A DNA stretch of 64,000 nt from Ruminococcus sp. HUN007 (GTDB taxonomy: Bacteria; Bacillota; Clostridia; Oscillospirales; Ruminococcaceae). Shown in pieces: positions 12,098 through 58,782 of this stretch (within the stretch, counting starts at the first letter, position 1; each line of letters begins with the position of its first letter). The translations under genes and the position numbers were made by a program. The notes beneath the pieces are model-generated. The model did not search any database. It was not told where the DNA came from and was given only the letters and a program-made list of their open reading frames with translations. The stretch covers positions 1,426,001 through 1,490,000 of the forward strand of contig NZ_JOOA01000002.1 in assembly GCF_000712055.1 (NCBI RefSeq). The letters run 5' to 3'.

Positions 12098-13108
12098 GTG
12101 GAAGACGGTGTTCTTGTAGATGCAAGTCAATGCGAAGGCGATATTGTTATTCCTGATTACGTTACCGCTATAGATCATGAGGCGTTTAAAGATAACGAAA
12201 AACTTACATCAGTGATCATACCTGATTCAGTAACCAGAATAGATTCATCTGCATTCTATGGGTGTTCAAATCTGAAATCAGTCGTAATTTTCGGTCCGAT
12301 AACAAGTATAGATTACCAGACATTTCGTGAGTGTTCAGCTCTTGAATCTGTAACCCTCCCCGATTCAGTAATCAAAATTGATGAAAAAGTATTTTGGGGC
12401 TGTCCGAATCTCAAATCAATAAATCTTCCTGATTCACTGATTAGTATTGGAGCGCAGGCATTTTGGTACTGTGAAAGTCTTGAATCCTTAACAATTCCTG
12501 AATCTTTAACCAGTATAGGTACATCTGCATTTTCGGGTACGCCATGGCTGGATAAACAAATGACTGAAAAAAATCCGTTCGCAATAGTAAATGGTATACT
12601 TATAGCCGCAAACTGCAATCTGTGCAGTGAAGAGGTTATTATTCCGAATTCTGTAGAGAGTATAGCAAAGGACGCATTAATTGGTTATGGTTCTGATAAG
12701 ATAAAATCAATAACAGTTCCTTCTTCAGTTACCAGCATAGGCATGTGGGCTTTTGATAGCCCAAGTTCACTGACCATTCTTAATCCTGACTGTAAAATCA
12801 GAAGAAAATTTCTCTGGACTGAAGACGTGACAGTCATCTCAGGATTTGCCGGTTCGACAGCTCAGAAATATGCCGAAAAATACAGACTTAAATTCGAAAC
12901 GCTTCCTGATGATTACGGTACCGAACCTGAGCCTGATCTTACCCGTGATGTAAACGAAGACGGTGTAGTTAATATGGCAGACGTAATATGTCTCACAAAG
13001 AATCTTCTCGCATTTTCAGGATCATCCGATTTTACTGCTTATGACGTAAACGGAGACGGACAGTTTAATATAATGGATCTTTTAGCTGTAAAGAGAGCGT
13101 TTTTATAA
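12098..13108 (+). CDS. BspA-like leucine-rich repeat protein with C-terminal dockerin, 5' end missing
   Basis: Residues 10-250 are LRR_5 (BspA/TpLRR) repeats, with units such as IPDSVTRIDSSAFYGCSNLK and LPDSLISIGAQAFWYCESL. The last 60 residues are a dockerin with two calcium loops: DVNEDGVVNMADVICL and DVNGDGQFNIMDLLAV. A dockerin implies export and attachment to a cohesin. However, the frame opens with a GTG that directly follows TAA, has no ribosome binding site and has no signal peptide, and the first residues (EDGVLVDASQC) normally lie inside such proteins. I read it as a 5'-truncated gene that probably is not secreted as it stands. The cohesin proteins at 43-57 kb could have been its binding partners. 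Confidence 0.75.
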   Translation: MEDGVLVDASQCEGDIVIPDYVTAIDHEAFKDNEKLTSVIIPDSVTRIDSSAFYGCSNLKSVVIFGPITSIDYQTFRECSALESVTLPDSVIKIDEKVFWGCPNLKSINLPDSLISIGAQAFWYCESLESLTIPESLTSIGTSAFSGTPWLDKQMTEKNPFAIVNGILIAANCNLCSEEVIIPNSVESIAKDALIGYGSDKIKSITVPSSVTSIGMWAFDSPSSLTILNPDCKIRRKFLWTEDVTVISGFAGSTAQKYAEKYRLKFETLPDDYGTEPEPDLTRDVNEDGVVNMADVICLTKNLLAFSGSSDFTAYDVNGDGQFNIMDLLAVKRAFL

Positions 13109-37333: not shown

Positions 37334-38746
37334 ATGAGTAACTATTACGAACAGCCTGATTTTGATTACATGCATATAATGCGTACCATGGATCTGATGA
37401 AAGACCATTACGACGAATATATCAGCTACCTGTATGAAAAAAGCTGCAGTATTATCAAAAGGAATACATCGGTGTGCTATTACGACTGTACAAATTATTA
37501 CTTTGAAACCGAATGTGAAGACGAAGACTATGTTGATGAAGTAACAGGAGAATTCATCAAAGGGCTTCGTAAATATGGTCCTTCAAAAGAACATCGTCCA
37601 AATCCTATCTGCGAAATGGGACTGTTCATGGATGCAGAAGGTATCCCTTTATCCATGTGTATTTCATCAGGTTCTGATAATGAGCAGACTACTGCTATTC
37701 CGCTGGAAAAGAAACTTACTAAAATGCTCCAGGGGAAAAAGTTCATATACTGTGCCGATGCAGGTCTTGGATCTTTGAATATCCGTAATTTCAATTCTAT
37801 GGGTGGTCGTGCGTTTATCGTTACACAGTCCGTAAAGAAACTTTCCTCAATGTTACAGGAGGCGGTTTTTAACGATTGTGATTACAAGCTGCTTTCCAGC
37901 AATAAGCATATTTCACTAAACTATATGAAGACATTCGACAGAAAAAATCCTGATAATCTGAGTCTTTACAACGATCATGCCTACAAAATAATTGACGCGG
38001 ATAAAGCGTTCGATGTAGGACTTTACGAAGAAAAAATCTGCAAAAACGGAAAGGTAAAAAAAGTTAAATCCAAAGCAACGCTTAAACAGAAAATCATTAT
38101 CTCATTTTCAAGAAAAATGATGGAATATCAGCGTTACATACGCAACAGGCAAATTGAAAGAGCGAAAAAGCTGCTTGAAAATATCGATCCTGAAACTTAC
38201 AAAAAGGGGCCGCATGATGTTACCAGATTCATCAAAAGAATCTCTAAGTCCAAAGCTGAAGAGAACGGTTCCGACACCTACATTCTTGACAAAGAAGCAA
38301 TTGAAAAAGAAGAAAAATACGATGGCTTTTATGCCGTAGCAACCAATCTTGATGATGACGCAAAATCTATTCTTGAAATCAGCATGAACCGCTACAAAAT
38401 AGAGGACTGTTTTCGAATCATGAAAACCAATTTTGACGCAAGACCTGTTTACCATAGTACCCTGAACAGAATTATTGCTCATTTTATGATATGCTATACT
38501 GCGCTTTTGATTTATCGTATTCTTGAAAAACTGCTTGAAGAAAAAGGATATCATTTTTCAGTATACAATATCATTGAAACAATCCGGAATATGAACGTTT
38601 CAAATATCCAGGATATGTGCTACATGTCCAATTATACTTGCTCTCAGGTGTGTACTGCTTTGAACGAAATTACGGGACTTGAGTTAGACAAACAATACTA
38701 TCTGCCAAAGACTTTGAATGGAAAAATAAAATTAATTTCCAAATAA
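37334..38746 (+). CDS. IS1634-family transposase, main frame
   Basis: The open frame begins near 37230 (ITEDRKIEFNPNLVNRFITF) and no start codon fits well; 37334 is only the first ATG. It has the IS4-group DDE features: VCYYDCTNYYFET (first Asp), KFIYCADAGLGSLNIRNF (second Asp), KADEtype positions with FIVTQSV, and the Y(2)R(3)E(6)K-like stretch YDGFYAVATNLDDDA with MNRYKIEDCFRIMKTNFDAR (Glu), then RIIAHFMICYTALLIYRILE. It needs the +1 frame after the A6 run to be joined to the N-terminal part, so it is either inactive or made by slippage. Confidence 0.82.
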   Translation: MSNYYEQPDFDYMHIMRTMDLMKDHYDEYISYLYEKSCSIIKRNTSVCYYDCTNYYFETECEDEDYVDEVTGEFIKGLRKYGPSKEHRPNPICEMGLFMDAEGIPLSMCISSGSDNEQTTAIPLEKKLTKMLQGKKFIYCADAGLGSLNIRNFNSMGGRAFIVTQSVKKLSSMLQEAVFNDCDYKLLSSNKHISLNYMKTFDRKNPDNLSLYNDHAYKIIDADKAFDVGLYEEKICKNGKVKKVKSKATLKQKIIISFSRKMMEYQRYIRNRQIERAKKLLENIDPETYKKGPHDVTRFIKRISKSKAEENGSDTYILDKEAIEKEEKYDGFYAVATNLDDDAKSILEISMNRYKIEDCFRIMKTNFDARPVYHSTLNRIIAHFMICYTALLIYRILEKLLEEKGYHFSVYNIIETIRNMNVSNIQDMCYMSNYTCSQVCTALNEITGLELDKQYYLPKTLNGKIKLISK

Positions 38747-42477: not shown

Positions 42478-43035
42478 ATGGATACAGCTGAATACAAACC
42501 TGATGACATAAACTCTGTCAAGATACTTCTGTGCTGTCTTATGCACAGCCTTGATTCTCCGGTTGATTCAGAAGAGCTTTATGACATCGCAGTAGATTCT
42601 GGCATAATAAACTATTTTTACTACAACGAGGCGATCGAAGAACTGCTGAAAAACGACACGATAATCTCCGCTCTTGATGACAACGGAAAAACCTGTTTTT
42701 CACTCGGAGAAAAAGGTGAACTCTTCGTTAAGGAATTTGCAAGCTACGTTGAGCTTTCGCTTCGCAAAAGACTTGTATATGAAGCTTTCAGGTACAGAGC
42801 CAAAAAAATGCAGAACGCCAGCCTTTCTCTGGATTACCGTGACTGTGATGAAGGATGCAGACTCGTATGCGGTATTTCAGACGGAGAGACCCAGGTCATG
42901 GAGCTGAGCCTGCTCACACGCAGCCGTACACAGGCGGAACTTATCGGAGAGCGCATCAGTGACAATCCATTATCCTTCTATAATGACATTATTAATTACT
43001 CGATCCAGAAAAGACTTGAACCTGATAAGGAATGA
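42478..43035 (+). CDS. DUF4364 family protein
   Basis: A 185-residue protein with GGAAAGGAG before its ATG. It matches DUF4364, a Firmicutes family with a winged-helix-like N-terminus: SVKILLCCLMHSLDSPVDSE, YFYYNEAIEELLKNDTI and FSLGEKGELFVKEFASYVE. The C-terminal half (CRLVCGISDGETQVMELSLL) is a small alpha/beta domain. It lies 55 bases after aroC and is probably the last gene of the aro operon. No function is known. Confidence 0.85.
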   Translation: MDTAEYKPDDINSVKILLCCLMHSLDSPVDSEELYDIAVDSGIINYFYYNEAIEELLKNDTIISALDDNGKTCFSLGEKGELFVKEFASYVELSLRKRLVYEAFRYRAKKMQNASLSLDYRDCDEGCRLVCGISDGETQVMELSLLTRSRTQAELIGERISDNPLSFYNDIINYSIQKRLEPDKE

Positions 43036-43312: not shown

Positions 43313-46207
43313 TTACTTAAGAAGGATCTTAACGAGACGAATAAGGTCAAGAGAGTTGATAACCTTGTCGCCGTTTACGTCGCCGTTAACCGGAGCTGTC
43401 TTGTCAGCTAAGAGTAAATATCTCTTGAGAGCAATGAGGTCTCTTGTGTTTACAACGCCGTTGTCATCAACGTCACCAACTGCAGCTTCTGTCGGATCTG
43501 TAGGCTTTACAGTAGGAGGTGTAGTAGGTTCAGCCTTTGTTTCTGCCGGTGTTGTTTCTGCTGGTTCAGCCTTTGTCTCTGCCGGTGTTGTTTCTGCTGG
43601 TTCAGCCTTTGTTTCTGCCGGTGTTGTCTTAGCTGGTTCAGCCTTTGTTTCTGCCGGTGTTGTTTCTGCCGGTTCAGCCTTTGTTTCTGCTGGTGTTGTT
43701 TCCGGAGCAGGTGTACCCTTGTTTACGATGATCTTACCTGCAATACCTTCAAAGTTTTCACCCTTGAGTATATTCTGCTTGTTAGTAGCCTTGTCAACCT
43801 GTGAACCTTCGAAGTTAGAGAGCTTGAATTCGTATTCGCCGTCCTTTGCATCAGCAGGGATCTCGATTTCGATCTTACCGATGACACCGTCCTTTGTGAT
43901 GTTCATACCATCTGCTTCAAGGAACTGAAGTGACTTGGACTTCTTACCTACTGTCCATGAGCAGCCGAAGTCGCCCTTGATACCTCTTGATACCTTGAAC
44001 TGGTCATCAAGTTCATAGTCAAACTGAAGTGCTGAGAAGCCGGCACCAATGTTCTTGGCTGAAATTTCAACCTTGATCTTTTCGCCTGGCTTACCTGAAG
44101 CTTCGCCAACCTGGATCTGGATCGCATCAGACTTTGCAGTAGGAGCTGCTGTAGGGTCAGCCTTTGTTACTGCCGGTGTTGTTTCTGCTGGTTCAGCCTT
44201 TGTCTCTGCCGGTGTTGTCTTAGCTGGTTCAGCCTTTGTCTCTGCCGGTGTTGTCTTAGCTGGTTCAGCCTTTGTCTCTGCCGGTGTTGTCTTAGCTGGT
44301 TCAGCCTTTGTTTCTGCTGGTGTTGTTTCTGCTGGTTCAGCCTTTGTTACTGCCGGTGTTGTAACTGCAGGTTCAACCTCACCTACCTGTACGATAGCAC
44401 CGAGGAATGTAGGGTTGAGAACTACCGGCTTTCTGTCGCCGCCATTTTCAGTTATACGGTTGGACATTGCACCGCCGTCACCCTTTGCATCGAACGGAAG
44501 TGAATAGAAGCCATCCTTAACGCCTGCCTTAACCTTAAGAGGGATAGTTGCGATAACAGTATCACCTTCAAGGTTTTCTGTATCACTGAAGAGAGCGAGA
44601 ACAGTCTCAATGTTTTCAGCTGCATCCTTCTTCTTGAATACGTTTGTTGTAGTCTTGTTGTAAGCAACGCTGTCTTCATTTTCAGGATCGTCAACGTCAC
44701 CGGCTTCAAATGCCTTTTCGTCGATCTCGAAGATGTTTGTATCAACGTCGAGCCATGCATTGAGAGCGTTGAAACCGCCGTCGTTGTTGTCTGTAACCTT
44801 GATCTTGATCTTTACAGTTTCGCCGGCCTTTGAAACCTTGTATACACCAGCGTCAACCTTAGGTCCCTTGAGACCGCCTGCAATTTCAGACTTTGAAACT
44901 TCCTGTTCCTTAAGTTCAGGAGCCTTTGTAGGTGTAACTGATGTAGGAATAGTTGTAGGTTCTGTTACAGCTGCTGTAGCTGATACTGTAGGTTCTACTG
45001 TAGGAACATCGCCAACGATGATCTTACCTGTAACTGCAGCAAACTTTCCTGATTCGATCTTAACCTGCTTGCCTGTAGTCTTGTCAACTGTTGAGCCTTC
45101 GATGTTGCTGAACTTAACTTCATAAACGCCGTCCTTTGTACCTGCAGGGATCTCGATTTCGAGTCTGCCGATAACGCCGTCGCCTGTGATGTTCATACCT
45201 TCATTTTCAAGGAACTGAGCTGACTTTTCAGTTTTACCGATTGTCCATGAGCAGCCGAAGTCACCCTTGAGACCTCTGCCGATCTTCATGTTGCCTTCGA
45301 TATCGTAGTCGAACTGGAGTGCTGAGAAACCGCTGCCTACGTTCTTGGCTGTTACAGGGATCTTAACCTTATCGCCGGCATTGCCTGAGATCTCGCCTGC
45401 TTCGATAATGATAGCATCAGCAGCAGGTGTAGCTGTAGGAGCTGTTGTAGGCTTGTCTGTTGCTGTTGTTACAGCCGGTGTTGAAGTAGCCTTTGTTACT
45501 TCAGGTGTTGATGTAGCCTTAGTTACTTCAGGTGTTGAAGTAGCCTTTGTTACTTCAGCTGTAGGAGCTGGAGAAGCAGCTTCTGAACCTACCTTGATAG
45601 TAAGAGACTTATAGTTAGGAGCAAGTTCAAGAGGAGTCTTTTCACCGTTTGCTTCAACTATTCTGTTCTGGTCAGCAACCTTCTTGCCATTCTGGAGAAC
45701 AGGGTCGCCGCCGATCTCAATCTTGTAATCGCCTGAAGCACCGTCGAGTACCTTGAATGTTAACTTTGATAACTTCTGGTCACCCGTGAGGTTTGTGGCA
45801 CTCTGGTCAACGTAGAGCTGAACAAGTGTTGAGAGATTAGCATCAGGATTCTGATACTTTGTGTTTGACTTTGTAGGATCGTTGATGTTCTGGTGAATTT
45901 GATCATCTTCATCTGTTGTTGCGTATTCCCACTTTTCAAGGCTGAGTGCCTTCTTGTTGTATGTAACATATGCATTAAGTGCTGAAAAACCATCAGCGTT
46001 GTCAGTTACATCACATGTAACACTGAATGTGTCACCAGGCTTGAAAGTAGTCTTGGACGCATCTGTTAAATTAACTGATACAGTTGCACCAGCGTCAGCA
46101 GCCTGTACTACTGATGAAAACTGTAATTCCGGCATTACGCCTACTGTACCTGCCATCATAGCAAGAGCTAATGTACTGGCAACTGTTCTTCTGAATTTTC
46201 TTGACAA
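43313..46207 (-). CDS. Scaffoldin-like protein A: four cohesin-like modules and a dockerin
   Basis: The start is a TTG (LSRKFRRTV) placed nine bases after GGAGG, as in the two paralogues; it gives 964 residues. A signal peptide (VASTLALAMMAGTV) is followed by a divergent cohesin-like module D (about 43-210), an EVTKATSTP repeat linker, module type B (266-402; GFSALQFDYDI), module type A (445-613; GFNALNAWLDV), a linker of about eight TTPAETKAEPA repeats, a second B module (696-835), another such linker and a C-terminal dockerin (912-967) with loops DVDDNGVVNTRDLIAL and DVNGDKVINSLDLIRL. The modules fit the cohesin pattern (pGexvkvpv-tAkNvg-gFsAlqFdy). There is no LPxTG or membrane anchor. It should be secreted, bind dockerin proteins and dock on another scaffoldin. 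Confidence 0.82.
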   Translation of the reverse strand: MSRKFRRTVASTLALAMMAGTVGVMPELQFSSVVQAADAGATVSVNLTDASKTTFKPGDTFSVTCDVTDNADGFSALNAYVTYNKKALSLEKWEYATTDEDDQIHQNINDPTKSNTKYQNPDANLSTLVQLYVDQSATNLTGDQKLSKLTFKVLDGASGDYKIEIGGDPVLQNGKKVADQNRIVEANGEKTPLELAPNYKSLTIKVGSEAASPAPTAEVTKATSTPEVTKATSTPEVTKATSTPAVTTATDKPTTAPTATPAADAIIIEAGEISGNAGDKVKIPVTAKNVGSGFSALQFDYDIEGNMKIGRGLKGDFGCSWTIGKTEKSAQFLENEGMNITGDGVIGRLEIEIPAGTKDGVYEVKFSNIEGSTVDKTTGKQVKIESGKFAAVTGKIIVGDVPTVEPTVSATAAVTEPTTIPTSVTPTKAPELKEQEVSKSEIAGGLKGPKVDAGVYKVSKAGETVKIKIKVTDNNDGGFNALNAWLDVDTNIFEIDEKAFEAGDVDDPENEDSVAYNKTTTNVFKKKDAAENIETVLALFSDTENLEGDTVIATIPLKVKAGVKDGFYSLPFDAKGDGGAMSNRITENGGDRKPVVLNPTFLGAIVQVGEVEPAVTTPAVTKAEPAETTPAETKAEPAKTTPAETKAEPAKTTPAETKAEPAKTTPAETKAEPAETTPAVTKADPTAAPTAKSDAIQIQVGEASGKPGEKIKVEISAKNIGAGFSALQFDYELDDQFKVSRGIKGDFGCSWTVGKKSKSLQFLEADGMNITKDGVIGKIEIEIPADAKDGEYEFKLSNFEGSQVDKATNKQNILKGENFEGIAGKIIVNKGTPAPETTPAETKAEPAETTPAETKAEPAKTTPAETKAEPAETTPAETKAEPAETTPAETKAEPTTPPTVKPTDPTEAAVGDVDDNGVVNTRDLIALKRYLLLADKTAPVNGDVNGDKVINSLDLIRLVKILLK

Positions 46208-46255
46208 TTTTAACACCCTCCATGTTTAAAATTTCATGACAGCTGTTTTAAAAAC

Positions 46256-46345
46256 ACCGATCAGACCGGATATCCGGCATTGCCTGATTTCCGGTCAGCG
46301 GTCACAGGACTCTGCCCTGCAGCCGGTGCCTGTTTACTGATCCGG
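46256..46345. repeat. Short intergenic repeat, copy 2, in the scaffoldin A leader
   Basis: ACCGATCAGACCGGATATCCGG at the left (with inner CCGG palindromes) matches the layout at 46704 (GCGCTGATCAGACCGG); the right end is TTTACTGATCCGGT. It lies between promoter and start codon of scaffoldin A, so it is transcribed as leader RNA. Confidence 0.45.
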
Positions 46346-46406
46346 TATCTGTTTTTGCAGCCGTCAGATTTTCGGATAAATCTCAAAAAAATTTACTCTT
46401 AAACCT

Positions 46407-46436
46407 ATTATACATCATCTCGCGAAAAATGTATAG
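46407..46436 (-). promoter_or_regulatory. Scaffoldin A promoter (shared CTATAC-N18-TATAAT design)
   Basis: Minus strand CTATAC (46436-46431), 18 bases, TATAAT (46412-46407). The bases before the -10 are TGATG in this and the scaffoldin B promoter. The leader to the start codon is about 190 bases. Confidence 0.7.
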
Positions 46437-46593
46437 CTATTTTTTAATCTTTTTTTTGAATTTTTTTTTGAAGTTGTATTGTGCACAGATTCAAAAACAG
46501 CAATTTGTAGTCTTTAACCCGCAATATTCGCCTTATTTCACACCAGAACTTATATCGTTCCGGCGTGCCGCTTCGTTTCAGACGTATATTAAA

Positions 46594-46812
46594 GAAACAC
46601 TGATTTATGAACAGACCAGCATTTTCCTGGAAAATTAGATCAGCACACCCTCAGTTCCCATGAAAACGTGAGTTGAGGATATGCTGATCTGTTTTATCCT
46701 GAGAAAGCGCTGATCAGACCGGAAATCCGGCTTTGACGGATCTCCGGAGCACGAAGGTCACGGGATTTTGTCCCGGACCCCGCGCTGAATAATGAACTGT
46801 TCAGCGTTTCTG
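46594..46812. repeat. Compound intergenic repeat, copy 3, with terminator of scaffoldin B
   Basis: It opens with GAAACACTGATTTATGAACAG and closes with CTGTTCAGCGTTTCTG, an imperfect inverted pair. Inside are a stem AGATCAGCA/TGCTGATCT (46637-46690), probably the terminator of scaffoldin B, and a nested unit from 46704 (GCGCTGATCAGACCGG). The 46208-46831 region has no gene. Confidence 0.5.
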
Positions 46813-46831
46813 CAGCATTCTGGTTTCTTTA

Positions 46832-49800
46832 TTATTTGGTTACCTTGTTCCAGATTTCTTCTGAGATATTGGTTTCACCCTTAATACCTGCTTCGAGAAG
46901 TGCTCTGAGGATGAAGGTTGCGTCTGTCTGACGGAATCCTGTACCCTTGTCAGAACCATCAACGTCACCGTTGCGGTGTGACATTTCAATGTAATTGTCA
47001 GGATACTTCTTCTTGCCTTCTTCGCTGATAAGATCTTCAAGTATCGACTTTCTTTCAACTGAGAGTGAAAGTACTTCACGGAGAAGTATTGTAGCGTCGA
47101 TCTGTGTTACCTTACCGTCGAGGTTTACGTCACCTCTGAGTCCTTCAGCAGGAGTCTTTGTAGGTTCAGGTGAAACTGTCGGTGAAGGTGATACTGTTGG
47201 TGAAGGTGACGGTGTTTCTGTACCGCCTGTAACCTTGATCTTTCCTGTTACGCCTTCAAACTGGCTGCTGTCAAGCTTAACCTGCTTGCCTGTTGCCGGA
47301 TCAACCTTTGAGCCTTCGAAGTTGGAGATCTTTATCTCGTATGTTCCGCTTGCATCTGCAGGAAGTTCTACTTCAAGCTTACCGATCACGCCGTCGCCTG
47401 AAATGTTCTCTCCGTCGCCTTCAAGGAACTGAGCTGACTTTTCAGTTCTGCCGATAGTCCATGAGCCGCTGAAGTCGCCCTTGATACCTCTGCCGATCCT
47501 GAGGCCGCCTGTGATGTCATAGTCGAACTGGAGTGCTGAGAAGCCTTCTCCTACGTTCTTTGCTGTTACTGGGATCTTTACCTTTTCGCCCGGCTTGCCT
47601 TCGATCTCTCCGAGTTCGATCTGGATCTTGCCTGCTGACGGTGTTACTGTCGGTGACGGTTTAACTGTAGGTGAAGGTGATACTGTAGGTGTAACTGTCG
47701 GAACAGGTGATGGTTTTACTTCTTCTCCTACTACGACGAGTGCTCCGCGGAATGTCGGATTAATAACTACAGGTGATCTGTCTCCGTCCTTGGTTACAAC
47801 ACGGTTTGCCATTGCGCCGCCGTCGCCGTTTGCGTCAAACGGAAGTGCGTAGCCGCCGTCCTTTGTACCGTTCTTGACCTTAAGTTCAACTGTTGCAATA
47901 ACTGTGTCGCCCTTGAGGTTTTCTGTATCGCTGAACAGTGCAAGGATCGTTGTTATATTGCCAGCCGCACCTTCCTTATGGAACTCGTTGAGAGTTACTG
48001 CTGAGTATGCAACTGAATCTTCGTTATCAGGATCATCCGTGTCGCCTGCTTCCATGCTTACGATCTCAAACATGTCTGTATTTACATCGAGCCATGAGTT
48101 GAGTGCATTGAAGCCCTCGCTGTTGTCAGTAACCTTTATCTTCAGCTTGAATGTTTCTCCGGCCTTTACGTTATACTTGCCCGCATCTACTGTAGGTCCT
48201 TCAAGTCCGTTTGCCACCTGTGTCTTTGATTCAGGCTGTTCGTTTGCGGACTGTACAGGGGTGGATGTAGGAGTTACTTCTGTAGGAACAACAGTCGGCT
48301 TCGGTGATACTGTCGGTGAAGGTGACGGTGTTTCTGTACCGCCTGTAACCTTGATCTTTCCTGTTACACCTTCGAACTGGCTGCCTTCGAGTCTTACCTG
48401 CTTGCCTGTTGCGGAATCAACCTTTGAACCTTCGAAGTTGGAAATCTTTATCTCGTATGTTCCGCTTGCGTCTGCAGGAAGTTCTACTTCAAGCTTACCG
48501 ATCACGCCGTCGCCTGAAATGTTCATTCCGTCGCCTTCAAGGAACTGTACTGACTTTTCTGTTCCGCCTACTGTCCATGAGCATGCAAAGTCGCCCTTGA
48601 TACCTCTGCCGATCCTGAGGCCGCCTGTGATGTCATAGTCGAACTGGAGTGCTGAGAAGCCTTCTCCTACGTTCTTTGCTGTTACAGGGATCTTTACCTT
48701 TTCGCCCGGCTTGCCTTCGATCTCACCAAGTGCGATCTGGATCTTGCCTGCTGCCGGTGTTACTGTCGGTGACGGTTTAACTGTAGGCGAAGGTGATACT
48801 GTAGGTGAAGGTGATACTGTCGGCTTCGGTGATGCTGTTTCTGTACCGCCTGAAACCCTGATCTTTCCTGTTACACCTTCGAACTGGCTGCCTTCGAGTC
48901 TTACCTGCTTGCCAGTTGCAGAGTCTACCTTTGAACCTTCGAAGTTGGAGATCTTTATCTCGTATGTTCCGCTTGCGTCTGCAGGAAGTTCTACTTCAAG
49001 CTTACCGATAACACCGTCGCCTGAAATGTTCATTCCGTCGCCTTCAAGGAACTGAGCTGAATTTTCTGTTCCGCCTACTGTCCATGAGCATGCGAAGTCG
49101 CCCTTGATACCTCTGCCGATCCTGAGACCGCCTGTGATGTCATAGTCGAACTGGAGTGCTGAGAAGCCTTCTCCTACGTTCTTTGCTGTTACTGGGATCT
49201 TTACCTTTTCGCCCGGCTTGCCTTCGATCTCTCCGAGTTCGATCTGGATCTTGCCTGCTGCCGGTGTTGTAGATGTCGGCTTTACTGTTGGTGTTTCTTC
49301 TGTCGGTTTTACTGTAGGAACCGGTGATGGCTGTACTGCACCTTCACCCACCTGAACAAGTGCTCCGAGGAATGTAGGGTTAAGAACTACAGGTGATCTG
49401 TCTCCGTCCCTGGTTACTACACGGTTTGCCATTGCACCGCCGTCACCCTTTGCATCGAACGGAAGTGTATAGTTAGCGTCCTTTGTTCCGGTCTTTACCT
49501 TAAGTTCAATTGTTGCAACAACTGCGTCGCCCTTGAGGTTTTCTGTATCACTGAACAGTGCAAGGATCGTTGTTATATTTTCAGCAGCATTTTCCTTATG
49601 GAACTTGTTGAGTGTTACTGCTGAATATGCTACTGAATCTTCGTTGTCAGGATCATCAGTGTCTCCGGCTTCCATGCTTACGATCTCAAATACGTCTGTA
49701 TTTACATCGAGCCATGAGTTAAGTGCGTTGAAGCCTTCGCTGTTGTTCACTGCCTTTATCTTCAGCTTGAATGTTTCTCCGGCCTTTACGTTATACTTGC

Positions 49801-52800
49801 CTGCATCTACTGTAGGTCCTTCAAGTCCGTTTGCTATCTGTGTCTTTGATTCAGGCTGCTCGTTTGCGGACTGTGCAGGTGAGGATGCAGATGCTGTAGG
49901 TGAAGGTGATACTGTAGGCTTCGGTGATGCTGTTTCTGTACCGCCTGAAACCCTGATCTTTCCTGTTACACCTTCGAACTGGCTGCCTTCGAGCTTGACC
50001 TGCTTGCCTGTTGCAGAATCCACCTTTGAACCTTCGAAGTTGGAGATCTTTATCTCGTATGTTCCGCTTGCGTCTGCAGGAAGTTCTACTTCAAGCTTAC
50101 CGATCACGCCGTCGCCTGAAATGTTCATTCCGTCGCCTTCAAGGAACTGAGCTGACTTTTCTGTTCCGCCCACTGTCCATGAGCATGCGAAGTCGCCCTT
50201 GATACCTCTGCCGATCCTGAGGCCGCCTGTGATGTCATAGTCGAACTGGAGTGCTGAGAAGCCTTCTCCTACGTTCTTTGCTGTTACAGGGATCTTTACC
50301 TTTTCACCCGGCTTGCCTTCAATCTCTCCGAGTTCGATCTGAATCTTGCCTGCTGCCGGTGTTGTAGATGTCGGCTTTACTGTTGGTGTTTCTTCTGTCG
50401 GCTTTACTGTAGGAACCGGTGATGGCTGTACTGCACCTTCACCCACCTGAACAAGTGCTCCGAGGAATGTAGGGTTAAGAACTACAGGTGATCTGTCTCC
50501 GTCCCTGGTTACTACACGGTTTGCCATTGCACCGCCGTCACCCTTTGCATCGAACGGAAGTGTATAGTTAGCGTCCTTTGTTCCGGTCTTTACCTTAAGT
50601 TCAATTGTTGCAACAACTGCGTCGCCCTTGAGGTTTTCTGTATCACTGAACAGTGCAAGGATCGTTGTTATATTTTCAGCAGCATTTTCCTTATGGAACT
50701 TGTTGAGTGTTACTGCTGAATATGCTACTGAATCTTCGTTGTCAGGATCATCAGTGTCTCCGGCTTCCATGCTTACGATCTCAAATACGTCTGTATTTAC
50801 ATCGAGCCATGAGTTAAGTGCGTTGAAGCCTTCGCTGTTGTTCACTGCCTTTATCTTCAGCTTGAATGTTTCTCCGGCCTTTACGTTATACTTGCCCGCA
50901 TCTACTGTAGGTCCTTCAAGTCCGTTTGCTATCTGTGTCTTTGATTCAGGCTGCTCGTTTGCGGACTGTGCAGGTGAGGATGCAGATGCTGTAGGTGAAG
51001 GTGATACTGTCGGCTTCGGTGATGCTGTTTCTGTACCGCCTGAAACCCTGATCTTTCCTGTTACACCTTCGAACTGGCTGCCTTCGAGCTTGACCTGCTT
51101 GCCTGTTGCAGAATCCACTTTTGAACCTTCGAAGTTGGAGATCTTTATCTCGTATGTTCCGCTTGCGTCTGCAGGAAGTTCTACTTCAAGCTTACCGATC
51201 ACGCCGTCGCCTGAAATGTTCATTCCGTCGCCTTCAAGGAACTGAGCTGACTTTTCTGTTCCGCCTACTGTCCATGAGCATGCGAAGTCGCCCTTGATAC
51301 CTCTGCCGATTCTGAGGCCGCCTGTGATGTCATAGTCGAACTGGAGTGCTGAGAAGCCTTCTCCTACGTTCTTTGCTGTTACTGGGATCTTTACCTTTTC
51401 ACCCGGCTTGCCTTCGATCTCTCCGAGTTCGATCTGAATCTTGCCTGCTGCCGGTGTTGTAGATGTCGGCTTTACTGTTGGTGTTTCAGATGATCCCGGT
51501 GTAGTCGGTTCAGGTGATGCTGTGCTTCCGGATACCTTGATCTTTCCGGATACAGCCTTGAACATACTGCCGTCCATCTTGACCTGCTTGCCTGTTGAAG
51601 GATCTACAGTTGAACCTTCAAAGTTTGAGATCTTTATATCATAAGTTCCGCTTGCATCTGAAGGAAGTTCAATTTCAAGTTTGCCGATAACGCCGTCGCC
51701 TGAAATGTTCATTCCGTCGCCTTCGAGGAACTGTGCTGAATTTTCCGTTCCGCCTACAGTCCATGAACATGCAAAGTCGCCCTTGATGCCTCTGCCTACT
51801 CTGAGGCCGCCTGTGATGTCGTAGTCAAACTGGAGTGCTGAGAAACCGTTTCCTACGTTCTTGGCTGTTACAGGAACCTTTACCTTTTCGCCCGGCTTGC
51901 CTTCAACTTCACCGATGCTGATCTCGATTCCGCCTGATGAAGGAGGTGCAGATGACGGAGCAGATGTCGGAGTCTGTGATCCTCCGTTTACTGAAACTGT
52001 ACCCTTTGAAATGTTACCGCTGAATTCCTTTTCAGTAGTTTTTTGATGCTGCTGTAAGAGATGAACCGGAAACATCGTAGTTACCGTTTGCAGAAGATGC
52101 AGCCTTGAATTCAAGCTTTACAGAAGCGCTTGAGAGATCCTTGTACGGATCAGCAAGACCTACGATCTTCTTTCCTTCAACATCTACTGTAAATCCGTCA
52201 GCTGATGCCTTTGTAAGTTCAAGAGCCTGGCTGTCAAAATTAAGTTCAGCAGCAAATCCTGCAAAATCTGTTCCTGAAATAGTAAGTGTTGTTGAGAAAG
52301 TTCCGCCTGCACTTGCAGAAGCATCAGCGATTTTGCCTGATAATGTACCTGACTGGGCAGGAGTCTGAGATGCAGGAGTCTGAGATGCAGGAGTCTGAGA
52401 TGCAGGTGCCTGTGAAGCAGGTGTCTGTGTTGAAGGATTTCCGACAGTTACAGCAGCTCCGCGGAATGTCGGATTAAGAACGATCGGCTTTCTTTCACCG
52501 TTTTCGGTAATTATACGGTTACCCATTGCACCGTCATCACCCTTCGCATCAAACGGAAGTGAATAATTACCGTCCTTAACGCCGTCCTTCGCCTTAAGTG
52601 TTATTGTTGCAATAACAGTATCACCTGTAAGATTATTGGCATCACTGTAAAGTGCAAGTACTGTCTTGACACCTGCTGCAGCGCCGTTTTTCTGGAATGT
52701 ATTTACTGTTGTATTTGAATAAGCATAGCTGTCTCCATTTTCAGGATCATCGGTATCTCCGGCTTCCATGCTTACGATCTCGAATACATTAGTATCCACG

Positions 52801-53072
52801 TCGAGCCATGAGTTAAGAGCATTGAAGCCTTCTCCGTTGTTTGTTACCTTAAGCTTGATCTTGAATGTTTCTCCGGCCTTTACACTGTAAACACCGGCAT
52901 CAACTGTAGGGCCTGCGATACCGCCAGCGGCACTTGTCGTTGATACTACCTGTTCTGCTGAAGCAGCACTTATTGTCTGTGTGACCTGTAATGCAGGAAA
53001 ACTGCCTGCAGGTCCGGTCATCATAGTGAGTGCTAAAGTACTCGCTACTACTTTTCTGAGTTTTCTTGACAC
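46832..53072 (-). pseudogene. Scaffoldin-like protein B: eleven cohesin-like modules and a divergent dockerin, with one frameshift
   Basis: Start GTG (MSRKLRKVVASTLAL) after GGAGG. The first frame (53072-52032, 346 residues) has a signal peptide, an A module (about 49-213) and most of a C module (about 241-346; FAGFAAELNF). It stops at AASKNY because of an extra A in TCAAAAAACTAC at 52040-52045; with one A fewer it reads AASKTTEKEF and continues in the second frame (to 46832). The second frame has B, B, A, B, A, B, B, A, B modules and a terminal dockerin. The joined product would be about 2075 residues: A-C-B-B-A-B-A-B-B-A-B-doc. The dockerin has loops DVNLDGKVTQIDATIL and DVDGSDKGTGFRQTDA with an unusually long insert between them. 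Whether the frameshift is real, slippage-bridged or a sequence error is open. Confidence 0.75.
49250..51440 (-). repeat. 1095-bp tandem duplication inside scaffoldin B
   Basis: Two nearly identical units of 1095 bp (365 codons), each one B module plus linker plus one A module plus linker. Landmarks at 49261 and 50356, 49533 and 50628, and 50011 and 51106 are all 1095 bases apart with only occasional single-base differences. A third, more divergent B module precedes them. Confidence 0.9.
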
Positions 53073-53203
53073 TTGAACAAAACCTCCGTTTATAGATTTT
53101 CCTGCTCACGGAACCACAGATATGATATATCTGTTATTTCATGATCCCGGTCATATTTTGCAGGATTGGTCGGTTGATCTGAAAAAAAACCACGTTGTAA
53201 TCT

Positions 53204-53233
53204 ATTATACATCAAAATTTCAAAAATGTATAG
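53204..53233 (-). promoter_or_regulatory. Scaffoldin B promoter (shared design)
   Basis: Minus strand CTATAC (53233-53228), 18 bases, TATAAT (53209-53204). The leader is about 125 bases. Confidence 0.7.
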
Positions 53234-53331
53234 TATATTTTTTTCTTCTGTGTTATGAATTATGCACTCATTTTTGCACGCATAAATCAAAAAATTGTAG
53301 TTATAGTAAATGAATCAGGCTTATTCAGAAA

Positions 53332-53380
53332 AAAAGACCGGAACAGCCCCTTTTAAAGTAACTATTCCGGTCTTAAAATG
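53332..53380. terminator. Terminator of scaffoldin C
   Basis: AAGACCGGAA pairs with TTCCGGTCTT, with an inner AG/CT, flanked by A- and T-runs on both sides. Confidence 0.75.
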
Positions 53381-53408
53381 TTTATTTAAGATTTACCATT
53401 TTCGGATA

Positions 53409-56400
53409 TCAGCCGAGTAACTTATTAACGAGACGGACCATATCCATTGAGTTGATAATGCCGTCACCGTTGATGTCGCCGTTTACAACCTTTGCATCCT
53501 TAACAAGGAGTAAGTACTTCTTGAGTGCGATGATATCAGCTGTATTAACTGAGCCGTCACCGTTTACATCATAAGCTGTATTTTCCGCTGTTGGTTCAGT
53601 TGTAGGTGCTTCCTTACCAACTATGATCTTGCCGGCAACAGCTGTAAACTTGTCAGCGTCAAGCTTAACCTGCTTGTTTGTAGCACTGTCAACCATTGCG
53701 CCTTCGAAGTTAGAGATCTTGATGTTGTATACTGTGCCGTCCTTAGCATCCTTAGGAATTTCGATTTCAAACTTACCGATTACACCGTCGCCTGAGATGT
53801 TCATTCCGTCTGCTTCAAGGAACTGTGCTGACTTTTCTGTCTTGCCGATCGTCCATGAGCAGCCGAAGTCGCCCTTGATACCTCTGCCGATTGTGAGATC
53901 ACCGTCGATATCGTAGTCGAACTGGAGTGCTGAGAAGCCGTTTCCTACGTTCTTGGCTGTTACAGGAACCTTAACCTTTTCGCCTGCTGCGCCGTATACA
54001 GTACCGATTTCGATTGAAATAGCGTCGCTCTTTGGAGCATCTGTAGCAGGTGCTGTCGGAGATGGTTCTGTTGTCTTCTGAGTCGGTGCTGGTGATGGTG
54101 ATGGTGATTCTGATGCCGGTGTAACTTCACCCACTGTGATCTTACCAGCTACGCCTTCAAACTTGCTGCTTTCAAGCTTAACCTGCTTGTTTGTAGCACT
54201 GTCAACCATTGCACCTTCGAAGTTAGAGATCTTGATGTTGTATACTGTGCCGTCCTTAGCATCCTTAGGGATCTCGATTTCGAACTTACCAATGCAGCCG
54301 TCGCCTGAAATGTTCATTCCGTCGCCTTCAAGGAACTGTGCTGACTTTTCTGTCTTGCCGATTGTCCATGAGCATGCGAAGTCGCCCTTGATACCTCTGC
54401 CGATCGTGAGACCGCCGTCGATGTCGTAGTCAAACTGGAGTGCTGAGAAACCGCCGCCTACGTTCTCTGCGTATACAGGAACCTTAACCTTTTCACCGGC
54501 ATTGCCGTTTATTTCACCGATCTTGATCTTGATAGCATCACCTGCAGGTGGCTCTTCAGATGGTTTTTCTGTAGTTGCTGTCGGCTGTGCTGTTGCTGGT
54601 GTAGGCTTAACTGTTGGTACTTCAGTTGGTGTTTCCGTTGCAGGTGCAGGATCGCCAACTGTTACAAGTGCACCAACAAATGTAGGGTTAAGAACAACAG
54701 GTGATCTGTCTCCGTCCTTAACTACAACACGGTTAGCCATTGCACCGCCGTCGCCCTTTGCATCAAACGGAAGTGTATAGTAGCCGTCCTTAACTCCGGC
54801 CTTAACTGTAAGTGTGATTGTAGCGATTACCTGATCGTCTGCAGCGTTTTCTGTATCACTGAAGAGAGCAAGGATCGTTGTGATATTGTCAGGTGCACCA
54901 TCCTTATGGAACTTGTTAAGAGTTACAGCTGAGTATGCAACTGAATCTTCGTTTTCAGGATCTGAAGTGTCGCCTGCTTCCATAGCTGTGATCTCGAATA
55001 CGTCAGTATCAACATCGAGCCATGCATTGAGAGCGTTGAAGCCGTCCTTATTGTCTGTTACCTTGATCTGAACGTCAAATTTATCGCCAGCCTTAACCTT
55101 GTATGTACCAGCGTCAACCTTAGGACCTGCAATACCGCCCTGAACGTCAGTCTTTGATACAGGCTGTTCTGCCTTTGCAGAATTTGAAGGAGCTGTTGTA
55201 GGGATCTCTGTAGGCTTTGCTGTTTCAGTAGGCTTAACTGAAACTGTAGGTTCAACTGTCGGATCTGATGAAACCGGCTTGTCACCTACTGTAATAGTAC
55301 CTGCAACACCTGCAAACTTGCTGCCGTCAAGCTTAACCTGCTTGCCTGTTGACTTGTCTACTACTGCGCCTTCAAAGTTAGAGATCTTGAATTTATATAC
55401 TGTACCTTCCTTAGCGTCTGCAGGAATTTCAACTTCGAGCTTACCGATAACGCCGTCGCCTGAAATGTTCATTCCGTCGCCTTCAAGGAACTGTGCTGAC
55501 TTTTCTGTCTTGCCGATTGTCCATGAGCATGCGAAGTCGCCCTTGATACCTCTGCCGACCTTGAGATCGCCGTCGATGTCATAGTCGAACTGAAGTGCTG
55601 AGAAACCGTCGCCTACGTTCTTGGCTGTTACAGGGATCTTAACCTTTTCGCCTGCCTTGCCTGCTACATTGTCAATTACGATCTGGATAGCATCGCTGTT
55701 AGGTGTCTCTGAAGGTGTAGTTGCCGGAGTCTGAGATGCAGGTGTCTGAGATGCAGGTGTCTGAGATGCAGGTGTCTGAGATGCAGGTGCCTCTGAAGGT
55801 AATTCGCCTACTGCGATATAGCCTGCTGTGCCTGCAAACTTTGCTGCTGCAAGTTTAACCTGCTTGCCTGTTGACTTGTCTACCATTGCGCCTTCAAAGT
55901 TGGAGATCTTGAAGTTATATACTGTACCTTCCTTAGCGTCTGCAGGAATTTCAACTTCGAGCTTACCGATAACGCCTTCGCCTGAAATGTTCATTCCGTC
56001 GCCTTCAAGGAACTGTGCTGACTTTTCTGTCTTACCGATTGTCCATGAGCATGCGAAGTCGCCCTTGATACCTCTGCCGATCATGAGATCGCCGTCGATA
56101 GCATAGTCAAACTGGAGAGCTGAGAAGCCGTCGCCTACGTTCTTGACTGTTACAGGAACCTTTACCTTTTCGCCTGGCTTGCCTGCTACTTTACCGATCT
56201 CGATCTGGATAGCATCGCTTGAAGGTGCCTGAGATGCAGGAGTCTGTGAAGGTGTCTGTGTAGCCGGTGTCTGTGATGTCGGATTTGATGAAGCACCGCT
56301 TACTGTTACAGTACCCTTTGTAACTGAGCCCTTGAATTCCTTTTCCTTATCCTTTGAAGCTGCTTCAAGTGATGAAGCTGATACTTCGTAGCTGCCTGCT

Positions 56401-57386
56401 GCTGAAGTCTTGAATTCGAGGTTTACTGTAGCTGATGAAACATCCTTGTACGGATTAGCAAGACCAACGATCTTTTTGCCCTGGATCTCAACGTCGAATC
56501 CGTCAGCTGTTGCCTTTGTAAGTTCAAGGCCGCTGAAGCTGAGTTCAGCTGCAAATCCTGCAAAATCAACGCCTGAAATTGAAAGAGTTGTCTTTACTGT
56601 TTCGCCTGCCTTGGCAGAAGCGTCAGCGATCTTGCCTGATAATGTGCCTGACTGAGCAGGAGTCTGTGAAGCTGGTGTCTGTGAAGCCGGTGTCTGTGAT
56701 GCCGGTGCCTGTGATGCAGGAGCCTGTGATGCAGGTGTCTGAGCAGTCGGCTGTGATGAAGGGTTGCCTACTGTTATTGAAGCGCCCTTGAATGTCGGGT
56801 TGATTACCAGCGGTGTTCTGTCTGAGTTGATACGGTTACCCATAGCGCCGCCATCGCCCTTTGCGTCAAACGGAAGTGAATAGTAGCCGTCCTTAGCTCC
56901 GTCCTTTACCTTAAGAGTATAGGTAGCAATAACCATGTCGCCCTTTGCATTGTCTGTGTCACTGTAAAGTGCGAGAAGAGTTTCTACGCCTGCTGCAGCT
57001 CCGCTCTTCTTGAATGTGTTGACTGTAACGTTTGAGTAAGCATAGCTGTCTTCGTTTTCAGGATCATCGATGTCGCCTGCTTCCTTTCCAACGATCTCAA
57101 ATACGTTTGTGTCAACGTCAAGCCATGTGTTCAGGGCATTGAAACCGTCTGTGTTTCCTGTAGCCTTGATCTTGACTTTGAATGTTTCGCCTGCCTTGAC
57201 TTCATAGGTACCTGCATCGATAGTAGGACCAGCAAGTCCGCCGGCAACGTTTGAAGTGGATACTGCCTGTTCTGCTGTAGCTGCATTGAGAACTGCGAAC
57301 TGTCCTGCAGGGAAGTTAGCAGCTGTACCAGTCATCATAGCAAGTGCTAAAGTACTTGCAACTACTTTTCTGATTTTTCTTGACAC
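53409..57386 (-). CDS. Scaffoldin-like protein C: seven cohesin-like modules and a dockerin
   Basis: A complete 1325-residue protein from a GTG ten bases after GGAGG. Signal peptide (VASTLALAMMTGTAANFPA, cleaved about residue 37), then A (50-207; GFNALNTWLDV), a TPASQ-repeat linker, C (247-364; FAGFAAELSF), B (391-527), TPASQ linker, B (563-702), A (749-912), B (949-1087), B (1119-1258) and a canonical dockerin (1271-1325; DVNGDGSVNTADIIAL and DINGDGIINSMDMVRL). B modules share GRGIKGDFACSWTIGKTEKS; A modules share LPFDAKGDGGAM. No anchor is present. It should be exported, hold up to seven dockerin partners and bind a further cohesin through its own dockerin. Module-partner specificity is unknown. 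Confidence 0.85.
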   Translation of the reverse strand: MSRKIRKVVASTLALAMMTGTAANFPAGQFAVLNAATAEQAVSTSNVAGGLAGPTIDAGTYEVKAGETFKVKIKATGNTDGFNALNTWLDVDTNVFEIVGKEAGDIDDPENEDSYAYSNVTVNTFKKSGAAAGVETLLALYSDTDNAKGDMVIATYTLKVKDGAKDGYYSLPFDAKGDGGAMGNRINSDRTPLVINPTFKGASITVGNPSSQPTAQTPASQAPASQAPASQTPASQTPASQTPAQSGTLSGKIADASAKAGETVKTTLSISGVDFAGFAAELSFSGLELTKATADGFDVEIQGKKIVGLANPYKDVSSATVNLEFKTSAAGSYEVSASSLEAASKDKEKEFKGSVTKGTVTVSGASSNPTSQTPATQTPSQTPASQAPSSDAIQIEIGKVAGKPGEKVKVPVTVKNVGDGFSALQFDYAIDGDLMIGRGIKGDFACSWTIGKTEKSAQFLEGDGMNISGEGVIGKLEVEIPADAKEGTVYNFKISNFEGAMVDKSTGKQVKLAAAKFAGTAGYIAVGELPSEAPASQTPASQTPASQTPASQTPATTPSETPNSDAIQIVIDNVAGKAGEKVKIPVTAKNVGDGFSALQFDYDIDGDLKVGRGIKGDFACSWTIGKTEKSAQFLEGDGMNISGDGVIGKLEVEIPADAKEGTVYKFKISNFEGAVVDKSTGKQVKLDGSKFAGVAGTITVGDKPVSSDPTVEPTVSVKPTETAKPTEIPTTAPSNSAKAEQPVSKTDVQGGIAGPKVDAGTYKVKAGDKFDVQIKVTDNKDGFNALNAWLDVDTDVFEITAMEAGDTSDPENEDSVAYSAVTLNKFHKDGAPDNITTILALFSDTENAADDQVIATITLTVKAGVKDGYYTLPFDAKGDGGAMANRVVVKDGDRSPVVLNPTFVGALVTVGDPAPATETPTEVPTVKPTPATAQPTATTEKPSEEPPAGDAIKIKIGEINGNAGEKVKVPVYAENVGGGFSALQFDYDIDGGLTIGRGIKGDFACSWTIGKTEKSAQFLEGDGMNISGDGCIGKFEIEIPKDAKDGTVYNIKISNFEGAMVDSATNKQVKLESSKFEGVAGKITVGEVTPASESPSPSPAPTQKTTEPSPTAPATDAPKSDAISIEIGTVYGAAGEKVKVPVTAKNVGNGFSALQFDYDIDGDLTIGRGIKGDFGCSWTIGKTEKSAQFLEADGMNISGDGVIGKFEIEIPKDAKDGTVYNIKISNFEGAMVDSATNKQVKLDADKFTAVAGKIIVGKEAPTTEPTAENTAYDVNGDGSVNTADIIALKKYLLLVKDAKVVNGDINGDGIINSMDMVRLVNKLLG

Positions 57387-58125: not shown

Positions 58126-58782
58126 ATGAGTTACAAAAACGACTTTATAAAGTTCATGACAGAATGCGGTGTTCTCACTTTCGGTGACTTCACTTTAAAG
58201 AGTGGAAGAAAGGCCCCTTATTTCGTAAACACAGGAAACTACAAGACCGGTAAGCAGCTTGCAAAGCTCGGTGAATTCTATGCTGAATGCATAAAAGATC
58301 ATGGCATTTCACCTGACACTCTTTTCGGACCTGCCTACAAGGGCATCCCGCTTGCGGTAAGCTGCAGCGTTGCACTTTTCAACAAGTACGGCATGGATGT
58401 CAATTACTGCTTCGACCGCAAGGAAGCCAAGGATCACGGTGAAGGCGGCGTTATCGTCGGCAAGCAGCTCACAGACGGTGAAAAGGTAGTTATCATCGAA
58501 GATGTTATCACAGCCGGAACAGCTATCAGACAGGTCATCCCGGTCCTTAAGAATGCTGCTGATGTAAAGATCGAAGCTATGGTCATTTCCGTTGACAGAA
58601 TGGAAAAGGGCAAGGAAGGCGATCTTTCAGCCGTTCAGGAAGTAAAGAGAGATTTCGGCATTGAGGTATTCTCTATCGTTACTATCGAAGATATCATAAA
58701 GGCTATTGAAGACGGTGTTATCAAAGGCAAGGAATACCTCGACAAGATGCTCGAATACAGAAAGACATACGGAATTAAATAA
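58126..58782 (+). CDS. pyrE: Orotate phosphoribosyltransferase
   Basis: A 218-residue enzyme making OMP from orotate and PRPP. FGDFTLKSGRKAPYFVNTGN, FGPAYKGIPLAVSCSVAL, CFDRKEAKDHGEGGVIVGK and the PRPP-binding VVIIEDVITAGTAIRQV are all typical. TCGGAGG precedes the ATG. It stands alone with its own promoter and a GC-rich terminator; no other pyrimidine gene is in the window. Confidence 0.97.
   Translation: MSYKNDFIKFMTECGVLTFGDFTLKSGRKAPYFVNTGNYKTGKQLAKLGEFYAECIKDHGISPDTLFGPAYKGIPLAVSCSVALFNKYGMDVNYCFDRKEAKDHGEGGVIVGKQLTDGEKVVIIEDVITAGTAIRQVIPVLKNAADVKIEAMVISVDRMEKGKEGDLSAVQEVKRDFGIEVFSIVTIEDIIKAIEDGVIKGKEYLDKMLEYRKTYGIK

Follow-up and report, generated by a model that had tools for sequence, protein, structure and literature searches.

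Three paralogous scaffoldin genes with two kinds of dockerin lie apart from a scaB-less sca-type cluster in Ruminococcus sp. HUN007

In Ruminococcus flavefaciens, the scaffoldin genes are arranged in the order scaC-scaA-scaB-cttA-scaE (PMC4081043), and the ScaB of strain FD-1 carries two cohesin subtypes on one chain (PMC4081043, PMC5934362). Group 4 dockerins occur on ScaB, CttA, ScaF, ScaH, ScaI and a peptidase; with or without an X module, they bind ScaE, which is anchored by sortase (PMC5301203), and they have internal symmetry (PMC2930009). FD-1 keeps its group 5 dockerin for one scaffoldin, ScaA (PMC2930009, PMC5934362). Another point of comparison is ERACg_42, a Ruminococcus metagenome-assembled genome (MAG) from a rumen consortium. 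The 2020 report on it (PMC7480376) counts 11 or more cellulosomal loci, with type I modules as the majority of cohesins and dockerins; it also lists LRR_5-dockerin_I proteins, scaffoldins that resisted classification and, detected by metaproteomics, a '6x cohesin_I-CttA' scaffoldin. Fragmented genomes and divergent cohesins lead to an undercount of ruminococcal scaffoldins (PMC11557425). Here we analyze a locus of Ruminococcus sp. HUN007 at which three adjacent paralogous genes on the minus strand, SX1, SX2 and SX3, encode scaffoldins (positions 43313-57386 of the window, which is the whole stretch of 64,000 nucleotides under analysis).

We consider it probable, at roughly 0.66, that these genes form a genus-wide relocated scaffoldin locus, about 198 kb from a sca cluster without scaB, and that the product of SX2 would do the job of ScaB. 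The coding pieces of the locus, in window positions, are as follows.

43313..46216, minus strand: SX1, modules D-B-A-B and a scaffoldin-clade dockerin (967 aa counted from the GTG, 964 aa if the inner TTG is the start)
46832..52114, minus strand: second part of SX2, modules B-B-A-B-A-B-B-A-B and a group-4-like dockerin (PF00963, 9 stretches)
52032..53072, minus strand: first part of SX2, N-terminus and modules A-C, leaving the frame inside C (PF00963, 2 stretches)
53409..57386, minus strand: SX3, modules A-C-B-B-A-B-B and a scaffoldin-clade dockerin, 1325 aa (PF00963, PF00404)

A preliminary description of this DNA had given the genes the coordinates, minus strand and common N-terminus that we find, and its module orders are exact: D-B-A-B in SX1, A-C-B-B-A-B-A-B-B-A-B in SX2 over its two frames, and A-C-B-B-A-B-B in SX3. 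It had also proposed three genes that each end in a dockerin. The terminal dockerins are all present and score over the PF00404 cut-off, but the middle gene is split over two frames and its dockerin is of another kind. The common N-terminus resembles a signal peptide, and a GGAGG site stands ahead of each gene. SX2 and SX3 start with GTG. The true start of SX1 is probably a TTG that lies three codons downstream of the GTG in our coordinates, and a database copy of SX1 (P0013, 964 aa) matches this inner start; the ribosome site of SX1 abuts the GTG. By eye, every chain ends at its dockerin, and no sortase or membrane anchor is seen in SX1, SX2 or SX3, as had been described. SX1 and SX3 have the architecture of adaptor scaffoldins, with cohesins and a dockerin on one chain without a cell-surface anchor; the same holds for SX2 on condition that its two frames yield a single protein. 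The adaptor scaffoldins of Acetivibrio likewise carry cohesins plus a dockerin without an anchor of their own, and differ in belonging to another genus, in their type II dyads and in another kind of cell attachment. Eleven cohesin modules are present in SX2 over its two frames, nine of them in one frame, and two of its neighboring A-B units are identical at 1052 of 1095 nucleotides, which suggests recent growth of the array. Among the PF00963 matches listed for the genome, 20 of 31 lie at this locus, whose modules are listed here.

45584..46105, minus strand: module D, SX1 (PF00963)
45008..45421, minus strand: module B, SX1
44405..44896, minus strand: module A, SX1
43718..44131, minus strand: module B, SX1
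52458..52949, minus strand: module A, SX2
52035..52361, minus strand: module C, SX2, interrupted by the frameshift
51524..51937, minus strand: module B, SX2
51035..51448, minus strand: module B, SX2
50459..50950, minus strand: module A, SX2
49940..50353, minus strand: module B, SX2
49364..49855, minus strand: module A, SX2
48845..49258, minus strand: module B, SX2
48338..48751, minus strand: module B, SX2
47744..48235, minus strand: module A, SX2
47222..47635, minus strand: module B, SX2
56775..57266, minus strand: module A, SX3
56274..56660, minus strand: module C, SX3
55806..56219, minus strand: module B, SX3
55284..55697, minus strand: module B, SX3
54672..55163, minus strand: module A, SX3
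54129..54542, minus strand: module B, SX3
53616..54029, minus strand: module B, SX3

A search with the cohesin profile PF00963, which the preliminary description had proposed as a check, gave scores over the cut-off for all four pieces: 89.9 bits for SX1 (E 2.3e-25, 4 stretches for 4 modules), 193.9 bits for the longer piece of SX2 (E 1.8e-57, 9 stretches for 9 modules), 47.8 bits for the shorter (E 2.2e-12, 2 stretches for 2 modules) and 148.9 bits for SX3 (E 1.4e-43, 6 stretches for 7 modules). These stretches cover 21 of the 22 modules of the locus. Modules A, B and C are assigned as cohesins by profile and predicted fold, in agreement with the earlier claim; module D is so assigned by profile only (35.2 bits to PF00963 in the genome search). 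Module B of SX1 (45008..45421) has a predicted cohesin fold, and cohesins rank top by Z among the structural matches of predicted structures of A, B and C; on this ground we reject a reading of these modules as generic immunoglobulin (Ig) domains. When the SX1 model is searched with Foldseek, the first rows are multi-domain Ig-like chains (PrgB, E 1.2e-16, root-mean-square deviation 37.7 Å, template modeling (TM) score at most 0.14), which we take to be strings of unrelated sandwiches; among single-domain rows, 5n5p (E 3.8e-12, TM 0.76 on target) and other cohesins score best.

By their sequences, A and B are distinct module families: identity is 64-100% among A modules, 60-100% among B modules, and 21-31% between the two. 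It is plausible that A and B bind different dockerins, as the preliminary description had suggested, an idea that fits both this low identity and the two cohesin subtypes of FD-1 ScaB (PMC4081043, PMC5934362). An alternative that we consider rather unlikely is that A and B are two sequence families of a single dockerin specificity, separated by an old divergence, on a homogeneous enzyme carrier. The occurrence of both families in all three genes speaks for this alternative, and sequence groups may share a partner, as in FD-1, where one ScaC cohesin is bound by dockerins of groups 3 and 6 alike (PMC5301203); however, identity between the families is far below that within each, A and B are recognised apart in the scaffoldins of relatives too, and the genome has many dockerin classes, a large class I among them.

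The dockerins of the three genes occupy the following positions.

43319..43477, minus strand: SX1 dockerin, scaffoldin clade (PF00404 search, dockerin tree)
46835..47143, minus strand: SX2 dockerin, group-4-like (CttA/ScaB kind), without a preceding X module (identity, own-genome profile search)
53415..53573, minus strand: SX3 dockerin, scaffoldin clade (PF00404 search, dockerin tree)

PF00404 scores 38.3 bits for SX1, 40.8 for SX3 and, barely over the cut-off of 22.9, 23.8 for SX2; NCBIfam models gave weak dockerin matches only, to a cellobiohydrolase model. Judged by sequence, the SX2 dockerin differs in kind from those of SX1 and SX3. The latter two group with twelve dockerins from scaffoldins of other genomes in a single clade (14 rows, support 99/89) that excludes 142 further dockerins of this genome; even the nearest of these do not exceed 47% identity to the SX1 and SX3 dockerins. 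The tree was built from 144 of 162 extracted matches (those under 40 bits or 50 residues and duplicates were dropped) plus these twelve, several of which are near-copies; the P0024 dockerin described below, the group-4-like tails and the enzyme dockerins of other genomes were left out. At least 151 dockerin matches are present in the genome (150 of 309 candidates were scored in the PF00404 search). By a rough motif count, class I comprises 61 of 147 rows; the tree assigns 87 to a wider class I clade, and the dockerin of the single GH48 in the genome (L115) falls in this large clade.

The SX2 dockerin is 46% identical to the tail of the CttA-like protein of the genome and 69% identical to that of P0028 (L035), which consists of one A module plus a group-4-like tail. 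Q-x-D-A-T occurs twice in the SX2 tail. A profile of these three tails finds seven in the genome, namely these, two in L190, one in L189, and P0029; the longest matches in the list of this group-4-like profile are 4iu2_B and 4wkz_A. The 182 C-terminal residues of SX2, searched against the PDB by sequence, gave weak dockerin-repeat matches and chance matches only. In L190 (G000:C2:2704500-2723500), the two long proteins with identical group-4-like tails lie ~13 kb apart. Given that the SX2 dockerin is of the CttA type and those of SX1 and SX3 fall in a scaffoldin-only clade, the three scaffoldins do not appear equivalent, and an anchored partner would be predicted for SX2, namely the ScaE-like P0026.

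P0026 belongs to a sca-type cluster (L031) at C2:1681496-1686899, about 198 kb from the SX locus. Its genes are transcribed in the order ScaC-like P0027, ScaA-like P0024, CttA-like P0025 and ScaE-like P0026, with intergenic gaps of 106, 157 and 176 nt, which is the R. flavefaciens order minus scaB. The P0027 cohesin has 5lxv as its best solved match (E 9.9e-16), and the P0024 dockerin has the FD-1 ScaA dockerin, 5n5p_B (E 5.2e-6), so that P0024, in the scaA slot and with a group-5-like dockerin, would match the ScaA role. P0026 passes PF00746 (20.5, cut-off 20) and TIGR01167 (20.1, cut-off 15.9), and the genome has three sortase matches. The scaB slot is empty in five of five clusters that span it, those of this genome, G002, G003, G004 and G008. 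Clusters were taken from seven of the 11 genus genomes, and those of G001 and G005, which do not cover the whole slot, are left out of the count. The CttA-like gene of G002 takes its name from its position, its tail not being recognised. Thus, the SX genes are separate from the sca cluster, as the preliminary description had it, but the predicted pairing of SX2 with P0026 departs from its picture of an independent adaptor-scaffoldin locus.

SX2 resembles the ScaB of R. flavefaciens FD-1 and 17 in its many cohesins, of two subtypes in FD-1, and perhaps in its C-terminal dockerin, which is group-4-like in SX2 and in ScaB is of group 4 and meant for ScaE (PMC5301203, PMC4081043). It differs in lying about 198 kb outside the sca cluster rather than between scaA and cttA, in its far diverged cohesin sequences, in having no X module directly before the dockerin, and in being accompanied by two paralogs with another dockerin. 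Two defining features of ScaB, the X module and the place in the sca cluster, are absent, and SX2 is therefore not simply ScaB. SX1 and SX3, like ScaA, end in a dockerin kept for scaffoldins. The SX3 dockerin did not find that of FD-1 ScaA: 5n5p_B is not among the PDB matches of SX3, the one of the two that was searched, at E <= 0.01.

The locus keeps its position across the genus. All 11 genus genomes examined match some part of A1 at E <= 1e-10, and in nine of the 11 (G000-G005, G007, G008, G010) a DUF4364 gene lies beside the dockerin end of the scaffoldin, with aroC beyond it in seven of these nine. The neighbors in the window are these.

42478..43035, plus strand: DUF4364 gene on the dockerin side (Pfam), with aroC, aroA and aroB beyond
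58126..58782, plus strand: phosphoribosyltransferase gene on the N-terminal side, also beside a scaffoldin piece in G003 (L183)

A DDE transposase gene adjoins aroB near the scaffoldin locus (window 37334-38746, plus strand). The scaffoldin piece beside DUF4364 is short in G005 (327 aa), G007 (80 aa) and G010 (116 aa), seemingly because the contig ends there. For SX1, twelve relatives in A1 are 67-91% identical, ten of them 87-91%. A scan of genome contigs gave two loci. Both L038 (goat omasum MAG RGIG2815) and L039 (uncultured Ruminococcus sp. RUG13497) retain the SX2-SX1 order together with the group-4-like SX2 tail. At the same DUF4364-aroC locus, G002 possesses a single scaffoldin of 2353 aa (L197:882-7940) with an SX1-type dockerin and 12 modules, A-B-B-C-B-A-B-A-B-B-A-B by module profiles. 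In a family-wide sample of 197 genomes, with at most four candidates scored in each, matches to A1 at E <= 1e-30 occur in three, and these belong to this genus; the homologue search scored 7995 candidates sharing most words, and no relative of A1 was found among viral contigs.

Several observations weigh against a genus-wide locus whose SX2 product would replace ScaB. Searched against the PDB by sequence, module A has no significant match (best E 0.045), and module B is nearest to FD-1 ScaB cohesin 5 only marginally, at 37.2 bits versus 34.5 for a type I cohesin. P0026 and P0025 have no PDB match by sequence, so the names ScaE-like and CttA-like rest on position, tail and conservation. A PT-rich linker, not an X module, precedes the SX2 dockerin, unlike that of FD-1 ScaB (PMC5301203). 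The FD-1 CttA XDoc is a weak match of the group-4-like profile (4iu2_B, E 0.0068) and ranks under three clostridial dockerins whose matches span a single repeat. The SX1/SX3 dockerin clade was compared with the dockerins of this genome only, over 64 columns and with the bootstrap not settled, and no partner was found for it. G002, whose single scaffoldin at this locus ends in an SX1-type dockerin, gave no group-4-like tail at E <= 1e-4 and one 10-bit match in L196, so neither the presence of three genes nor anchoring of the scaffoldin through ScaE extends to the whole genus.

A further such point is that SX2 is frameshifted in this assembly, so its proposed role depends on an intact copy in the living strain. 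The two open reading frames, 52032-53072 and 46832-52114, overlap at 52032-52114 and meet inside module C near a short A run. This run resembles a slippery site, but by eye a -1 shift misses the downstream frame, and we therefore reject programmed -1 slippage; the frameshift is either an assembly error or a real mutation. We think it quite improbable that SX2 is a decaying pseudogene and that the working system consists of SX1 and SX3, reaching the cell by their own dockerin clade and not by ScaE. The frameshift itself and the missing tail in G002 favor this reading, as do other broken frames: a dockerin gene in L161 (G000:C2:2132500-2134300) is seemingly broken over two frames, and one of the three sortase matches has an internal stop. 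Such scattered breaks, which with SX2 suggest either assembly indels or decay in the genome, could equally be the former; moreover, the downstream SX2 frame of 1760 aa is otherwise open, and L038 and L039, whose contigs start within the gene, have unbroken tails of the SX2 type. That the locus has no link to an anchored component, as first described, is very doubtful: the three genes show no anchor of their own and the SX1 and SX3 dockerins differ in kind from the CttA-type tail, but by its kind the SX2 dockerin goes with the CttA-type tails, and the same genome has a ScaE-like gene whose product carries a sortase tail.

In the relocated-locus reading that we prefer, enzymes with the large dockerin classes would load on the A and B cohesins, which may take up different classes, and the CttA-type dockerin of SX2 would plug into the sortase-tailed P0026, holding the complex on the cell wall. 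SX2, linked to ScaE in this manner, would fill the place of ScaB, the binding being predicted from the kind of dockerin only. SX1 and SX3 would dock through their scaffoldin-only dockerins onto another cohesin, possibly B or C of SX2, their own B modules, or a cohesin protein elsewhere in the genome. Candidate receptors of the last sort are a B-like cohesin at L037:5848-7014 (169 bits to the B profile and 20.4 bits, under the cut-off, to PF00963) with an apparent C-terminal membrane helix by eye, two A-like cohesins at L034:4710-6365 with an amphipathic-looking tail, and the A-like cohesins of L032, with lipoprotein-like N-termini by eye. In L034 and L208, proteins that combine a pair of A-like cohesins with a His-rich stretch share one C-terminal tail and are encoded near genes with an N-terminal dockerin; a similar arrangement is present in G004. 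An extension that we regard as a long shot is a self-extending cellulosome, in which SX1 and SX3 dockerins would bind B or C modules of the same scaffoldins, giving branched, open-ended trees, and SX2 would be the chain that terminates on anchored ScaE. Each chain would then present slots for enzymes (A, B) and slots for growth in a fixed order, and the genus-wide locus would have replaced the scaB of the sca cluster.

Likened by description, ERACg_42 and the SX locus are probably the same kind of system, although the available portion of that report describes no three-paralog locus or position (PMC7480376). The window also encodes, at 12098-13108 on the plus strand, a leucine-rich repeat protein of the BspA type that carries a dockerin at its C-terminus (LRR_5, PF00404), of the LRR_5-dockerin_I kind reported for ERACg_42. 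Our literature searches, mostly of papers outside subscription, found no published description of the SX locus. This kind of scaffoldin is thus already known, and what we add is the locus, its genus-wide position and the split in dockerins.

For the most part, rumen cellulosomes are interpreted by a single model, the sca cluster of FD-1, and here large scaffoldins, predicted to carry plant-fiber-degrading enzymes, are kept elsewhere. The genus combines a scaB-less sca cluster, a scaffoldin-only dockerin type and ordered arrays built from at least two families of cohesins. Should the pairing be confirmed, these proteins would supply designer cellulosomes with new, naturally occurring cohesin-dockerin pairs. 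An annotation of ruminococcal cellulosomes that looks no further than the sca cluster can overlook the main scaffolds.

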